A DNA stretch of 64,000 bases from Croceivirga sp. (GTDB taxonomy: Bacteria; Bacteroidota; Bacteroidia; Flavobacteriales; Flavobacteriaceae): positions 186,001 through 250,000 of the forward strand of contig JANQKR010000013.1 in the NCBI GenBank assembly GCA_028281025.1, given 5' to 3'. The notes below the pieces were generated by a model. That model was not told the origin of the DNA and made no database searches. It saw only the letters and a program-made list of their open reading frames with translations. Positions 6,536-12,199 of the stretch are shown here, piece after piece. The first letter of the stretch is position 1. Each line of letters begins with the position of its first letter. Position numbers and translations under genes: made by a program.

Positions 6536-8392
6536 ATGATAAAGATTGTAAAAAAGCTGGTCTATCTACTGTTCTGTGGTGCCGGAGCCCTACTGGCCCA
6601 AAACAATACGCCCTATTGGCAACAGCATGTGGATTATGACATGGAAGTGACCATGGATGTGGAAACCTATCAATACAATGGGACACAAAAACTGGTCTAC
6701 ACCAACAATTCCCCCGATACTTTGCAACGGATGTATTACCATTTGTACTTTAATGCCTTTCAACCGGGAAGTGAAATGGATCTCCGTCTACAAAACATCA
6801 AAGATGGGGACAAGCGAATGATGAAGGACGGTAAAAGCAGAATTGCTTCCTTGTCCAAAACTGAACAGGGGTATCTCCATGCCCTTACATTGACCCAAGA
6901 TGGGCAAAAGGTCGATTTTAGCGAAGAGGAGACCATTTTAGTTGTGGATCTGGCAAAACCTATTCCACCAGGTGGTAAAACCACTATGGACATGAGCTTT
7001 CAAGGGCAGGTCCCTTTACAGGTGCGCCGCTCTGGAAGAAACAGTACGGAAGGGGTCGCCTTGTCCATGAGCCAATGGTACCCCAAAGTAGTCGAATATG
7101 ATTTTGAAGGCTGGCATCCCAACCCCTATATTGCCAGGGAATTCCATGGGGTCTGGGGCGATTTTGATGTGAAAATTACCATTGACAAGGAATATACCAT
7201 AGGGGGAACAGGCTATTTACAAAACCCACAGGAAATTGGCCATGGTTATGAGGCTGCGGGAACCAAGGTAAAAACCAAGGGGAAAACCCTAACATGGCAT
7301 TTTAAGGCACCTATGGTCCATGACTTTATGTGGGGAGCGGACCCCGAATATGTACACGATACCTTTGAAATGCAAAACGGACCCCTACTGCACTTCTTCT
7401 ACAAGGACAAACCTGAGCTACAGGAAAACTGGAAAAACCTCCAGCCCAAAACTGCTGCCGCCATGGAGTTTTTCAACAAAAATATTGGCCCATATCCCTA
7501 CAAACAGTATTCTGTTGTACAGGGGGGTGACGGCGGTATGGAATATGCCATGAGCACCTTGATTACCGGTGAACGTTCTTTTGGTAGTCTTGTCGGTGTC
7601 ATGGTGCATGAGATGGCCCACTCCTGGTTCCAACACGTTTTGGCGACCAACGAGTCCAAACATTCCTGGATGGACGAAGGTTTTACCTCTTTTATCAGCA
7701 GCTTGTGTATGAATGAAATTATGGACCAGGGTAAGGACAATCCTTTCCAGGGTTCCTATAAAGGGTACTATGCCCTGGTAAAATCCGGAAAGGAACAACC
7801 ACAGACCACACATGCCGATCGATACGACTTGAATTTTGCCTACGGCATTGCAGCCTATAGCAAAGGAGCTGTCTTTTTATCCCAATTGGGCTATGTAATT
7901 GGTCAGGACAAACTAATGGAAACACTAAGGAAATACTACGATGACTTTAAGTTTAAACATCCTGTTCCCAATGATATCAAAAGAACGGCGGAAAAGGTGT
8001 CGGGCATGGAATTGGATTGGTATTTGACCGATTGGACCCAAACTACAAATACCATTGATTATGGAATTAAGGATGTAGTTTCCGAAGGTGGGAAGACCAA
8101 AGTGGTTTTTGAACGTATTGGCCTTATGCCCATGCCCTTGGATATTTTGGTGGTGGATGCCGAAGGAAATCGGGAAACCTATTATATTCCCTTACGCATG
8201 ATGCGCGCTGAAAAAGACAATCCGTATCCAAATTTGAAACGAACCGTTGTTGAGGACTGGCCGTGGGCCTACCCAACCTATGAGCTGGTTCTGGACATGC
8301 CCATAACGAATTTGGCGGGGCTCAATATAGACCCCTCCCAACTTATGGCGGACATCAATAGGGAGAATAACATTTGGCAAGCCCAGGAATAG
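6536..8392 (+). CDS. M1 family metallopeptidase
   Basis: A 618-residue zinc aminopeptidase-like protein with an N-terminal signal peptide (cut near ALLAQ), so exported. The exopeptidase motif reads GGMEYA (333-338; usually GAMEN), and the zinc site is HEMAH at 358-362 with the third ligand Glu381 in WMDEGF. The N-terminal beta domain and the helical C-terminal domain are both present, and length is normal for the short bacterial M1 group. It follows the subtilase gene with a one-base gap, so translation is probably coupled, and together they would break extracellular proteins into amino acids. Confidence 0.92.
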   Translation: MIKIVKKLVYLLFCGAGALLAQNNTPYWQQHVDYDMEVTMDVETYQYNGTQKLVYTNNSPDTLQRMYYHLYFNAFQPGSEMDLRLQNIKDGDKRMMKDGKSRIASLSKTEQGYLHALTLTQDGQKVDFSEEETILVVDLAKPIPPGGKTTMDMSFQGQVPLQVRRSGRNSTEGVALSMSQWYPKVVEYDFEGWHPNPYIAREFHGVWGDFDVKITIDKEYTIGGTGYLQNPQEIGHGYEAAGTKVKTKGKTLTWHFKAPMVHDFMWGADPEYVHDTFEMQNGPLLHFFYKDKPELQENWKNLQPKTAAAMEFFNKNIGPYPYKQYSVVQGGDGGMEYAMSTLITGERSFGSLVGVMVHEMAHSWFQHVLATNESKHSWMDEGFTSFISSLCMNEIMDQGKDNPFQGSYKGYYALVKSGKEQPQTTHADRYDLNFAYGIAAYSKGAVFLSQLGYVIGQDKLMETLRKYYDDFKFKHPVPNDIKRTAEKVSGMELDWYLTDWTQTTNTIDYGIKDVVSEGGKTKVVFERIGLMPMPLDILVVDAEGNRETYYIPLRMMRAEKDNPYPNLKRTVVEDWPWAYPTYELVLDMPITNLAGLNIDPSQLMADINRENNIWQAQE

Positions 8393-8507
8393 CGCCAAAA
8401 CCAAATCCCATAGCATTGGGCAATAGCGCCAAGTATCGCAATCCTTGGAGGTCATGGGCAAAATTCCGAACCCTAAATGTAAACATCGTAACTTACACTA
8501 AACAATT

Positions 8508-8533
8508 GTCCCCTTAGGGGGCTTCAGGGGTGT
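8508..8533. repeat. Left palindromic end of the DUF559 cassette
   Basis: The sequence holds a C4-TTA-G4 palindrome (8510-8520) followed by GGGGTGT (8527-8533), which contains the GTG start of the DUF559 reading frame. Read outward it goes ACACCCC, a short spacer, C-run, short loop, G-run. The right end of the DUF559 segment (8897-8928) has the same plan in inverted orientation. This looks like an imperfect terminal inverted repeat; mobility is inferred. Confidence 0.5.
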
Positions 8534-9327
8534 CAAAAAACAATAGCATTCCATATGACCCTAAACTAAAGGAATATGCCAGAGCGCTAAGACAAAACAG
8601 CACCTTGGCCGAGGTTTTGCTTTGGAACAACATTAAAAATGGTGTTCTTGGCGTTCAATTCCACAGACAGGTCCCCCTTCTTAACTTTATCGTGGATTTT
8701 TATTGTCATGAATTAATGTTGGCCATTGAAATCGATGGTCGTTCGCATGACTTTAAATATGGGTACGATGAAAAAAAACAGGGGCTCTTGGAACAAAAAG
8801 GGGTTCGCTTTCTTGGCTTTTCCGATAAGAAAATCAAAACGGACATGTCCCATGTAATGCTAACCATATCGGACGAGGTAAAAAAGCAGATGGCCAACAC
8901 CCCCCTTACGTTCCCCGAAAAGGGGGAATCCAAATCGGCACACGGGCCTGTTAGGAACACCTTCCCAAAAAAAGAACGATTAAAAAGCAAAAAACTCTTG
9001 GAGCAACTCTTTCTTAAGGGCAGCGCTATCTCTGCCTTTCCCCTAAAGCTCCTATACTTAAAAACTGCCCTACCCAAGGACGTGCCCTTCCAGGTTACCG
9101 TAGTGGCGCCGAAGCGGAATTTCAAATCAGCTGTGAAACGGAACCGCATAAAAAGGCTGCTCAGAGAGGCCTATCGCCTGAACAAACCCGCTTTTTTTAA
9201 CAATACAAAGGGACAATATGCGTTGGTGATTTTATACCTTGGAAAAGAAATGCCTTCTTTTTCCGAAATAGAATCAGGAACCAAAACCTTGCTTACCAAG
9301 CTCCTAAAAAAGATTTCAAATGAATAG
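8530..9327 (+). CDS. rnpA: DUF559 nuclease-like domain fused to RNase P protein (RnpA)
   Basis: A 265-residue two-part protein. Residues 1-120 are a DUF559/Vsr-like domain of the PD-(D/E)XK fold (STLAEVLLW, FIVDFY, AIEIDG). Residues about 143-265 are RnpA, the protein subunit of RNase P that binds precursor-tRNA leaders, with the RNR signature in VKRNRIKRLLREAYR. RnpA in this family is normally about 120-130 residues and stands alone. No ATG, GTG or TTG lies at the expected RnpA start: the codon before RNTFPKKERLK is GTT. Translation must begin at GTG 8530 or at the in-frame ATG 8890, which would give 145 residues. C/G-run palindromes bracket the DUF559 part, suggesting a cassette inserted in the first codons of rnpA. 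The gene overlaps the S41 peptidase by 8 bp. Confidence 0.88.
   Translation: MSKNNSIPYDPKLKEYARALRQNSTLAEVLLWNNIKNGVLGVQFHRQVPLLNFIVDFYCHELMLAIEIDGRSHDFKYGYDEKKQGLLEQKGVRFLGFSDKKIKTDMSHVMLTISDEVKKQMANTPLTFPEKGESKSAHGPVRNTFPKKERLKSKKLLEQLFLKGSAISAFPLKLLYLKTALPKDVPFQVTVVAPKRNFKSAVKRNRIKRLLREAYRLNKPAFFNNTKGQYALVILYLGKEMPSFSEIESGTKTLLTKLLKKISNE
8897..8928. repeat. Right palindromic end of the DUF559 cassette
   Basis: ACACCCC (8897-8903) is followed by the hairpin TTCCCC / GGGGAA (8911-8916 and 8923-8928). It mirrors the left end at 8508-8533 as an imperfect inverted repeat. Here the repeat is translated as the linker between the DUF559 and RnpA domains (around NTPLTFPEKGE) and contains no stop codon, which allows the fusion. 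Confidence 0.5.
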
Positions 9328-10945
9328 ACTCTTCAAAAGACGTTTGCTTATCCCTGTTTTTGCCGTTGTTTTTCTTGTTGTCGGAAGTGGTTTTAAAAGC
9401 GATTTTTTTGAGATTGCCAAACAAATAGAAATTTTTACAACGCTGTTCAAGGAACTCAACATGAATTATGTTGATGAAACAAATCCCGCGGAGTTAATGG
9501 ATTCCGCCATAAAAAACATGTTGGATGAATTGGATCCCTATACCAAATTTTTGAACGAGCAGGATGTTGAGGATTATAAAATAAGCAATGCCGGGGAATA
9601 CTCGGGCATTGGCGCCTTGGTGCGATCTTATGACGATAAATTGTTGATTGTGGAACCCTACCAGGATTATCCTGCCGATAAGGCTGGACTCAAAGCTGGG
9701 GATGAAATCATCCAGATTGGGGATATTAAGGTGTCCGATTTTAACGACAATGCCAGTGAACTCCTCAAAGGAACCAACGGGACGGAAGTTGAGGTTACCT
9801 ACCAAAGGCTGGGGGAAACCAAAAAAACGACCATTAAGCGGGAAGGCGTGGAAGTGGATGCGGTTCCCTATTACAGTATGGCAGATGACAAAACAGGATA
9901 TATTGTGCTGTCACGGTTCAACAGAAAAGCATCGGCACAGACCAAGGCCGCGATACTAGATCTAAAGGGGCAGGGTGCAGAACGCTTGATCCTTGATTTG
10001 CGCGGAAATCCCGGTGGCCTTCTTTCCGAAGCCATTAACGTCACCAATTTATTTGTGCCCAAAGGGGAATTGATAGTGACCACAAAATCCAAAGTAAAAA
10101 AGTTCAATCAACAGTACACGACCAAAAATCAGCCCATTGATGCGGAAATTCCCTTGGTGGTCCTTATCAATGGAAGCAGTGCTTCGGCCAGTGAGATTGT
10201 ATCCGGAGGGCTTCAAGATTTGGACCGTGCCGTGGTCATGGGCGCTAGAAGTTTTGGAAAAGGGCTGGTTCAGCGTCCACTGAAGTTAACCTATGGAACC
10301 CAATTAAAAGTCACCATATCCCGTTATTACACCCCTTCCGGTAGATGTATCCAGTCCTTGGATTATTGGAACAGGGATGAAGAAGGAAATGCGGTCAGAA
10401 ATACCAAATTCAATCAATTCAAGACCCGAAACGGAAGAATCGTGGAAGACGGAGGTGGTGTTATGCCGGATGTGGAAATTGCTTCGCTTAAAACCAATGA
10501 CCTCATCAAAGCCCTTGACAGAAACAGGGTCATTTTTGATTTTGCCACCGATTTTTTCTATAAAAACGATTTTGGCGCGGTTTCCGATTTTAGTTTTTCC
10601 GATACGGACTATACCGCTTTCAAGGGATTTGCCCAAAAAGCGGATTTTACCTTTAAAACAGATACCGAAAAACTATTGGAGGAACAACTCAATGCGGATG
10701 AGACCCTTTTGGGCTCCGAAGTACAGAACAGTTACAAAGATTTGCTATTGACCATCAACAAAGGAAAAATATCCGCCTTGGACACCTATAAGAAAGAGAT
10801 TTCCAAAAAACTTACCGATGAACTTGTGAAACGGTATTTCTACAGAAGGGGACTTTACGATTATAGCCTTAAACATGATGAGGGCATTTTAACGGCGGTG
10901 TCTTTGCTAAATGACAGCTCCAAGTACGCCAACATCCTGAAATGA
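9320..10945 (+). CDS. S41 family C-terminal processing peptidase
   Basis: A 541-residue CtpA/Prc-type serine protease acting in the periplasm, anchored or exported through the N-terminal hydrophobic segment (about residues 8-24). A PDZ domain lies at about 88-175 (with YSGIGA and KAGDEI). The catalytic Ser is in NGSSASASE (284-292) and the Lys is Lys314 in SFGKG. The C-terminal 180 residues form a helical extension common in Bacteroidota members. It overlaps the rnpA fusion gene by 8 bp, so the two are coupled; the rnpA/S41 pairing is common in flavobacteria. Such enzymes trim or degrade envelope proteins; the substrate here is unknown. Confidence 0.9.
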   Translation: MNRLFKRRLLIPVFAVVFLVVGSGFKSDFFEIAKQIEIFTTLFKELNMNYVDETNPAELMDSAIKNMLDELDPYTKFLNEQDVEDYKISNAGEYSGIGALVRSYDDKLLIVEPYQDYPADKAGLKAGDEIIQIGDIKVSDFNDNASELLKGTNGTEVEVTYQRLGETKKTTIKREGVEVDAVPYYSMADDKTGYIVLSRFNRKASAQTKAAILDLKGQGAERLILDLRGNPGGLLSEAINVTNLFVPKGELIVTTKSKVKKFNQQYTTKNQPIDAEIPLVVLINGSSASASEIVSGGLQDLDRAVVMGARSFGKGLVQRPLKLTYGTQLKVTISRYYTPSGRCIQSLDYWNRDEEGNAVRNTKFNQFKTRNGRIVEDGGGVMPDVEIASLKTNDLIKALDRNRVIFDFATDFFYKNDFGAVSDFSFSDTDYTAFKGFAQKADFTFKTDTEKLLEEQLNADETLLGSEVQNSYKDLLLTINKGKISALDTYKKEISKKLTDELVKRYFYRRGLYDYSLKHDEGILTAVSLLNDSSKYANILK

Positions 10946-10972
10946 TTTTTGGATTTCTCCCTACATTTGGGC

Positions 10973-12199
10973 ATGCAAAAATTAACCGTTTGCGAACTTT
11001 TTGCCGGTGTTGGGGGTTTCCGATTGGGATTGGAGGATACCGATAAATTTAAGGTTGTTTGGAGTAATCAATGGGAGCCTTCCACCAAAACACAACATGC
11101 TTCAACAGTCTATGAAGCGCGTTTTGGGGCACAGAACCACTCCAACCAAAATATTGAGGAGGTTCCTACCCAAGAAATTCCCGACCACAATGTCCTGGTG
11201 GGCGGATTTCCATGTCAGGACTATTCCGTTGCAGCAACCTTAAACAGTTCCAAGGGCCTTTTGGGTAAAAAAGGTGTGCTTTGGTGGTCCATATATCGCA
11301 TTTTAAAGGAAAAGAAAAAGAGGCCCCAATATTTGATCCTGGAAAATGTGGACCGCCTGTTAAAATCACCCGCTACACAACGCGGACGTGATTTTGCCGT
11401 GATGTTAAAGGGTCTTTCAGACTTGGGTTACGCCGTTGAATGGCGCGTGATCAATGCCGCGGAATACGGTTTTCCCCAACGCCGGAGGAGGGTGTTTCTG
11501 GTGGGCTATCACAAATCATCCCAAATTTTTAAAAACATCGGGGAAAACGATAAGGAGGAATGGATAACACGAAATGGGGTTTTGGCTACTGCCTTTCCCG
11601 TTCAACAAACCACGCAACAATCCACATTTTTTGATTTTAAGGGAGATTTGGTTTCCACATCCAACAATTTTAATCAAGGAAAAACCCATTCCCCCTTTGA
11701 AAATTCCGGTCTCTGTATTGAAAACACGGTAATTACCCAAAAGACTACCCCAAGTTTTGATGGTCCGCAACTTCCGCTTTCCTCAATATTGCTCAATGGA
11801 GCGGTCACGGCAGATTTCTATATTGATCCTGATGAACTTCCCAAATGGCAATATCTAAAAGGCAAGAAAAAAGAAATTAGAACCACAAAAACAGGTTATC
11901 AATACCAATATTCCGAGGGTTCCATGGTTTTTCCGGATGCTTTGGACAAACCTTCAAGAACCATCATTACCGGTGAAGGTGGAAAATCACCTTCACGTTT
12001 TAAACATGTGGTACAAACGGCCATGGGATATCGTCGCTTAACTCCAATAGAATTGGAACGACTCAACGGCTTTCCGGACAACCATACCAAACTTAAGGGA
12101 ATATCCGACACCAAACGGGCTTTCTTCATGGGAAATGCATTGGTGGTCGGTGTGGTAAAAAAAATAGGGGAATCCTTAATCTCCCTTTTGGCGGATTAA
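10973..12199 (+). CDS. C5 DNA cytosine methyltransferase
   Basis: A 408-residue Dcm-type enzyme transferring a methyl group from SAM to cytosine C5. Ordered motifs are visible: I (ELFAGVGGFRLG), IV with the catalytic Cys (GGFPCQDYS), VI (LENVDRLL), VIII (RRRRVFLVGY), IX (RRLTPIELERLNGFP) and X (GNALVVGVVKKIG). The variable target-recognition region lies between VIII and IX, so the recognised sequence cannot be inferred. The frame is open from TTG 10949, but ATG 10973 fits the family start MQKLTVCELFAG. No endonuclease gene adjoins it: the S41 peptidase precedes and an acetyltransferase converges. It is therefore an orphan methylase or the remnant of a restriction system. Confidence 0.9.
   Translation: MQKLTVCELFAGVGGFRLGLEDTDKFKVVWSNQWEPSTKTQHASTVYEARFGAQNHSNQNIEEVPTQEIPDHNVLVGGFPCQDYSVAATLNSSKGLLGKKGVLWWSIYRILKEKKKRPQYLILENVDRLLKSPATQRGRDFAVMLKGLSDLGYAVEWRVINAAEYGFPQRRRRVFLVGYHKSSQIFKNIGENDKEEWITRNGVLATAFPVQQTTQQSTFFDFKGDLVSTSNNFNQGKTHSPFENSGLCIENTVITQKTTPSFDGPQLPLSSILLNGAVTADFYIDPDELPKWQYLKGKKKEIRTTKTGYQYQYSEGSMVFPDALDKPSRTIITGEGGKSPSRFKHVVQTAMGYRRLTPIELERLNGFPDNHTKLKGISDTKRAFFMGNALVVGVVKKIGESLISLLAD

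Follow-up and report, generated by a model that had tools for sequence, protein, structure and literature searches.

The gene for the RNase P protein, rnpA, is read in this Croceivirga genome as the C-terminal part of a longer open frame, the first part of which is a DUF559 domain. We interpret positions 8506–8928 of the window (the whole stretch of 64,000 nucleotides that was analysed) as a nuclease cassette of the homing type, which would escape splicing and be tolerated in fused form, with a probability of roughly 60%. The interpretation rests on direct observations: the fusion itself, empty sites, the cassette ends, the in-frame occurrence of the domain in other host genes, cassette lineages that are host-specific, filled and empty sites in near relatives, and the fold of a homing nuclease.

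The fused rnpA gene

Two families meet in one open frame (table 1). The window protein scores 86.5 bits against PF04480 (curated threshold 20.6) and 69.2 bits against PF00825 (curated threshold 22.3), so that membership of both DUF559 and RnpA is satisfied; NCBIfam TIGR00188, at 38.0 bits, stays slightly below its threshold of 38.35. The sequence-only reading had placed a DUF559 domain in frame before an RnpA body that lacks a start codon of its own. Both statements hold, the codon at which relatives have Met being GTT. The sequence leaves room for two forms of RnpA, the fusion or a shorter protein begun at 8890.

Table 1. Features of the rnpA locus; positions are those of the window.
Feature	Position	Strand	Evidence
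Upstream gene, 618 aa	6536..8392	+	3' end conserved at empty rnpA loci
Left cassette end, type-B palindrome TTGTCCCCTT-AGGGGGCTTCAGGGGTGT, contains the GTG start of the fusion	8506..8533	+	alignment to L038
Fused ORF DUF559–RnpA, 265 aa, GTG start	8530..9327	+	single open frame; also in G004, G005
DUF559 (EDxHD/Vsr-like nuclease) domain, residues 12–117	8563..8880	+	PF04480 E 1.4e-24; Foldseek 3hrl, 3r3p
Putative internal ATG for a short RnpA	8890..8892	+	sequence; GTG in G005, ATG in G004
Right cassette end, decayed palindrome, translated as linker NTPLTFPEKGES	8897..8928	+	score 11; 15/6,336 windows equally good
Stretch within which 51 bp are missing in G004 and G005, between two TTCCC repeats (8911–8915, 8962–8966)	8911..8966	+	alignment
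GTT AGG AAC ACC where the native start is expected	8950..8961	+	compared with L009–L014
RnpA domain, residues 145–258	8962..9303	+	PF00825 (Ribonuclease_P) E 3.8e-19
Downstream gene, 541 aa	9320..10945	+	overlaps end of the DUF559–RnpA fusion

The upstream neighbour we take to be an M1-type and the downstream one an S41-type peptidase, in both cases without a family search. Two genes downstream of the fusion, at 10949–12199, lies a gene whose translation we read, again without a family search, as C5-cytosine-methylase-like. PADLOC returned nothing but a weak DpdF match (E 0.027). A tblastn search of plasmids gave 40 records, none covering 80% of the query; the 15 listed match the DUF559 part.

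The rnpA locus within the genus

If the DUF559 domain was inserted, what does the locus look like without it? We compared rnpA, RecG and MetH in 11 genomes of the genus, G000 being the genome of the window. The fusion occurs in three of them (G000, G004 and G005), at 91% (G004) and 94% (G005) identity. Because the same fusion is present in three separate assemblies, one of which (G005) is a single contig, sequencing or assembly error is ruled out as its source. In the remaining eight, a stand-alone rnpA with its own ATG stands at the same locus, preceded by the conserved 3' end of the upstream gene, so relatives with an empty site do exist, as the sequence-only reading required.

Six of the eight stand-alone genes begin ATG GAY TTT NNN TTY CC, where the fusion has GTT AGG AAC ACC TTC CC; L015 and L016 have different first codons after the ATG. 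Insertion in the first codons of rnpA had been suggested: the cassette is indeed there, but the native start codons were replaced, not merely preceded. The loss of 51 bp from G004 and G005 removes the right hairpin and the linker and keeps the frame. We infer that the cassette probably entered rnpA once, in the ancestor of the three species, and that its right end was lost in two of them.

The nuclease domain

What kind of nuclease is this? Foldseek ranked 3hrl first for the predicted DUF559 fold (E 1.1e-4), the sole match passing E 0.001, and 3hrl is also matched by sequence (E 8.2e-9). The second-best PDB match is the homing endonuclease I-Bth0305I (3r3p_B; E 1.3e-3, probability 1.00, TM-score 0.72 by target), a fold match that we accept as meeting the definition of an EDxHD catalytic fold. 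At rank 11 (E 0.23, TM-score 0.48 by target), 1vsr stands behind I-Bth0305I, and identity of the window gene with Vsr was rejected. Vsr goes together with Dcm and is not known to form cassettes. Elsewhere in the genome of the window a separate gene, L005, was read as Vsr. The AF2 model is fairly confident in the DUF559 half, with block means of 78–90 in 10 of the first 12 blocks. Confidence is low in the RnpA half because there were too few sequences; the alignment used left out rows with RnpA only.

The window copy retains E16, D44, E55, D57 and H61 (numbering of the domain alignment). An Arg that is kept in 182 of 189 domains is replaced in the three fusions by Gly, Gly and His (Gly in the window), and is missing from four other domains of the 189. 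Omega for the DUF559 part is 0.19, 0.41 and 0.25 in the three fusion pairs, exceeding in every pair that of RnpA (0.06–0.16). The rnpA copy, without this near-invariant Arg, may have a damaged nuclease, and we infer that it may be largely a passenger.

The cassette ends

By eye we read the flanks of 28 of 68 DUF559 loci. In Winogradskyella and Flavobacterium, DUF559 genes are bracketed by TTGTCCCCTTGAGGGGACTTTAGGGGTGT and its inverse, which we call type B. A related form, CCCCCTTTGAAGGGGG, brackets some DUF559 genes from Scalindua, Calditrichaeota and Capnocytophaga, while L041, L045, L051, L066, L101 and others have other or differently oriented repeats, or none visible. The left end in the window resembles the ends of free DUF559 genes in Winogradskyella (a score of 22 of 29 against type B). 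Aligned to the 29-base left end of L038 it scores 22, the best of 6,336 other sequence windows reaching 12. The right end lies in the expected place, and its reading frame is the one in which the right end of L037 is translated (KTPLKSPQGDS).

The two ends had been described as imperfect and inverted, of one plan. That part of the description survives which concerns the left end, and this end is convincing only because it was compared with the ends of relatives; as a pair the two ends of the window are not significant. Against each other they score 7 inverted and 7.5 direct, where the median for control genes is 9, and a repeat search over 8300–9500 reported no repeat pair. Folding as single-stranded DNA is not unusual for the left end (z −1.09) and moderately so for the right end (z −2.72); in the relative L038 it is unremarkable for the right end (z −1.29). 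The exact type-A pattern occurs at one place in the genome of the window. Type B has no match in G000, and none in the window even when three mismatches are allowed, a search that misses the left end because of an indel in it. As to the expectation that other DUF559 genes of this genome would carry the same ends, hairpins of similar plan do occur, but their sequence and orientation are different (by eye).

How general are such ends? Among 88 free DUF559 copies, 52 have a repeat (score ≥14) common to their flanks; control genes reach 13 of 145, and cross-locus pairs 39 of 434. The 88 come from the genus and the family, three of them from the array L024; identical copies, short flanks and frames above 200 codons were dropped, and control genes score up to 47.5 where repeats lie nearby. 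Direct repeats outnumber inverted ones in the free copies (39 and 28 of 88 at the same score). Short GC-rich hairpins stand on both sides of 33/65 internal, 16/28 N-terminal and 61/138 free cassettes and of 0/36 window ORFs, six of which have a downstream hairpin; per single sequence window the rate is 11/441 in host coding DNA and 2/247 inside DUF559. With 33 of 65 internal cassettes so flanked, palindromic DNA lies in frame within genes, a property shared with Rickettsia palindromic elements. L024, in G005, has an intact copy next to which DUF559 fragments and repeated flanks form a local array, and this suggests repeated local duplication.

DUF559 in frame in other host genes

PF04480 matches (E ≤ 0.001) were found in 119 of 249 Flavobacteriaceae genomes, 28 of them with weak matches only; by our own count 91 have a strong match (E < 1e-8). 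Among 395 Bacteroidota genomes, 163 have a match at E ≤ 1e-10. Many matches sit in frames of 350–1484 codons. Pfam or NCBIfam identifies at least 22 host protein families with DUF559 in frame: RnpA, LeuRS, IleRS, MetH, RecG, HemD, HisD, QueG, a threonine-dehydratase-like enzyme, methylmalonyl-CoA mutase, a His_biosynth (HisF-like) enzyme, coproporphyrinogen oxidase, RNase H, UvrD-type helicases, a GATase_5 protein, an M23 peptidase, N-formylglutamate amidohydrolase and five restriction-modification types, in which last the nuclease domain could be native. Beside many in-frame cassettes the palindromes are translated (by eye). Dozens of in-frame insertions, the empty sites of eight congeners and a left end like that of free cassettes support the suggestion of a small mobile nuclease-like cassette.

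LeuRS has two insertion sites, the second (L372, L376, L380) immediately before the YELSTMPGWAGSSWYW stretch. In the MetH of G224 (L106/L134) one frame holds two DUF559 cassettes, separated by some 410 residues; each of them falls in the MetH group of the tree described below.

Are these inserts removed by splicing? Pfam shows no splicing-domain family in the window protein (E ≤ 1) or in 30 other in-frame DUF559 proteins (E ≤ 1e-5), and an intein was rejected for them. At rnpA a group I or II intron was likewise rejected, Rfam giving no match at E ≤ 1 over 8000–9800; the window site alone was scanned.

Filled and empty sites

Empty sites in close relatives, which we required of a mobile cassette, are present at rnpA (8 of 11 genomes), RecG (9 of 11) and MetH (9 of 11). 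RecG is filled in G004 and G005 and empty in G000 and eight others, the empty RecG of G000 being 96% identical in protein to the filled ones. By our reading of the alignment, 9 bp of RecG gave way to the insertion, with no sign of a target duplication. At MetH the filled genomes are G003 and G005, and the other nine are empty. Compared with the empty gene of G002, the filled MetH gene of G003 is 94–100% identical in each 100-bp bin up to the cassette; the exceptions are some 45 bp on its left (35/45) and some 30 bp on its right (21/30). These short flanks resemble those of other species: on the right 29 of 30 positions agree with G010, and the left is nearer to G005 and G010 (by eye). From the alignment alone we take the G003 cassette to have been copied in recently, with short conversion tracts; exchange by ordinary recombination remains possible. 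In G256 the empty LeuRS site (L406) has a slightly longer loop, TLPSPGNG, possibly the relic of a removed cassette.

A tree of 189 DUF559 domains over 107 columns contains 127 labelled 'free' and 62 labelled by host. Since loci with long frames were deliberately included, these numbers are not frequencies; three ORFs above 230 aa had no label, and their domains, if kept, count as 'free'. The ten labels (nine hosts and 'free') need nine changes, the minimum, where shuffling gives a mean of 60.6. The MetH, RecG, HemD, ThrDH, RnpA and QueG cassettes each fall on one side of a branch (support 87–100). Those of LeuRS are not one clade, their group of 38 including MetH, RecG, IleRS and HisD (support 88), and 91 of 186 inner branches are unresolved. 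Host-specific lineages would be predicted by homing, but vertical descent would give them too.

Cassettes are more alike than their hosts in 9/28 MetH, 24/28 HemD and 38/55 ThrDH pairs, but in just 1/153 LeuRS and 0/36 RecG pairs. Much of the cassette distribution can be vertical, to judge from the LeuRS pairs, from RecG, where cassette and host identity are correlated (r 0.94, 36 pairs), and from the LeuRS host tree, in which 19 filled and 28 empty rows need 6 state changes against 15 by shuffling. For that tree 242 genomes had a match and the 30 loci with the best matches to G060 were used, so that its empty sites are unevenly sampled.

Palindromes without a nuclease gene

Type-B palindromes occur in 25 of 249 genomes, up to 27 copies in one, and the reversed control pattern in none; some have no adjoining DUF559. 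A strong DUF559 match (E < 1e-8, our own count) is present in 21 of these 25 genomes and in 70 of the 224 others, the remaining four having weak PF04480 matches only. Of 20 stretches around palindromes in G087, G144 and G167, 19 have no frame above 150 codons over the palindrome, and in one it lies at a frame edge. Arrays of type-B palindromes occur in G144 (L314–L317), with units of about 141 bp in L314 and 104 bp in L317, L315 and L316 being less regular. G167 has 13 type-B palindromes and a weak PF04480 match only; these may be relics, or moved by something else.

No type-B palindrome, the only kind sought, lies within 1.5 kb of any of 30 RAYT loci, fetched from 46 listed matches in seven genomes and in part truncated by contig ends. 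G177 has nine palindromes and no Y1_Tnp match. A RAYT/REP element, with a Y1 transposase between the same palindromes, is not what these loci contain.

A proposed explanation and its rivals

We propose that the segment is a cassette made up of a small EDxHD/Vsr-like nuclease gene (DUF559) and its palindromic ends. It would have taken the place of the rnpA start in an ancestor shared by three sister species, leaving RnpA as the C-terminal part of a fusion or as the product of the internal start. Its spread would be homing-like: the nuclease would cut alleles from which the cassette is absent, and a copy bearing it would serve as repair template, so that the cassette is installed with only short conversion of the flanks. 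Unlike introns and inteins, the cassette would stay in. An insertion that puts an essential gene out of frame would be lost; a cassette would survive because its ends and nuclease are read through in frame and its site is a loop or terminus. Cutting, copying, the absence of splicing and the largely passenger state of the rnpA copy are all inferred, and there are no data on nuclease activity.

Might the nuclease part instead have been domesticated, serving RnpA or the cell, for example as an aid in RNA or DNA processing? Its frame is intact in three species, the five residues listed above are retained in the window and its omega is 0.19–0.41. Yet a requirement to stay in frame upstream of an essential protein can account for such a purifying signal; the DUF559 part has a higher omega than RnpA in all pairs, the near-invariant Arg has gone from all three fusions, and the same domain sits in unrelated hosts. 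We think it unlikely that function keeps the fusion. We are equally doubtful that the palindromes are passive REP-like sequences moved by another enzyme, such as the Y1 transposase RAYT, with DUF559 as cargo. Their plan is REP-like, solo copies exist and four palindrome-bearing genomes have only weak PF04480 matches, but the 30 RAYT loci fetched lack the palindrome, G177 has palindromes without a Y1_Tnp match, strong DUF559 matches concentrate in the genomes with palindromes, and the DUF559 tree tracks the host gene.

That these are ordinary old domain fusions, vertically inherited, with terminators for hairpins, would suit the co-divergence of RecG and its cassette, and the intergenic position of free DUF559 genes, where terminators are common (compare the downstream hairpins of the window ORFs). 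Near-relative empty sites contradict it for RecG and MetH, hairpins flank cassettes on both sides within open frames as well, and one type of end is common to different genera; we consider it quite improbable. Least credible of all is that Vsr-like repair enzymes linked to cytosine methylases have come to lie near or in genes by chance. There is a methylase-like gene in the window, and Caulobacter VsrA, a DUF559 protein, is linked in its function with a methylase (PMC12907096). The poor rank of 1vsr behind I-Bth0305I and the separate Vsr-like gene L005 speak against it, and in-frame insertion in so many hosts would be left unexplained.

Relation to known elements

Setting these rivals aside, we return to the homing-type cassette and ask what it resembles. 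I-Bth0305I is intron-encoded, and Rickettsia palindromic elements are not known to carry a nuclease gene. The catalytic-domain fold matches that of I-Bth0305I; the window cassette differs from it in being a domain of about 105 residues with palindromic ends, read through in frame, with no intron or intein found. RAYT/REP elements likewise have a nuclease-type gene flanked by REP-like palindromes, with solo copies elsewhere, but no Y1 transposase is linked to the loci examined and the nuclease fold differs. To Vsr there is only the weak fold match.

A DUF559 gene of Thermosynechococcus has been assigned to the EDxHD homing family (PMC9403480). I-Bth0305I has long DNA-binding regions, and homing endonucleases are commonly described as depending on an intron or intein for a safe place within a conserved gene (PMC3943268). 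Vsr is linked with Dcm, and Caulobacter cells without a methylase need a DUF559 protein for their SOS response (PMC12907096). In-frame unspliced insertions without a detectable splicing domain are known from phage methylases: ShiLan, with a homing-like distribution, and a lone LAGLIDADG (PMC11855218). There the nuclease is an HNH enzyme hidden in another frame (ShiLan) or apparently vertically inherited (the lone LAGLIDADG), in a phage gene in both cases (PMC11855218), whereas DUF559 shares the frame of its hosts, which include many housekeeping genes of bacteria, and lies between palindromic ends. Rickettsia palindromic elements and in-gene REPs also place palindromic DNA in frame in functional genes (PMC3733652), but the palindromes of the DUF559 cassette bracket a nuclease gene. 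We found no description of DUF559 cassettes with this combination in the open-access PMC literature, seen in part, outside which most subscription papers lie.

A wider claim we advance only tentatively, at somewhat under even odds: DUF559 cassettes, together with the solo palindromes that share their ends, would be an unrecognised class of bacterial mobile element with autonomous and non-autonomous members, a homing nuclease without splicing that invades essential and housekeeping genes in frame. If true, such a class would also explain part of the REP-like palindromes in genomes without RAYT. DUF559 cassettes appear to be permanent in-frame domains in RnpA, LeuRS, IleRS, MetH and RecG, with neither intron nor intein, and the filled and empty sites of near relatives make the mechanism directly testable. 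Should it hold, a domain of unknown function would gain a role and part of the bacterial REP-like palindromes an origin, and many odd insertion domains of housekeeping enzymes would be parasites, not functions.
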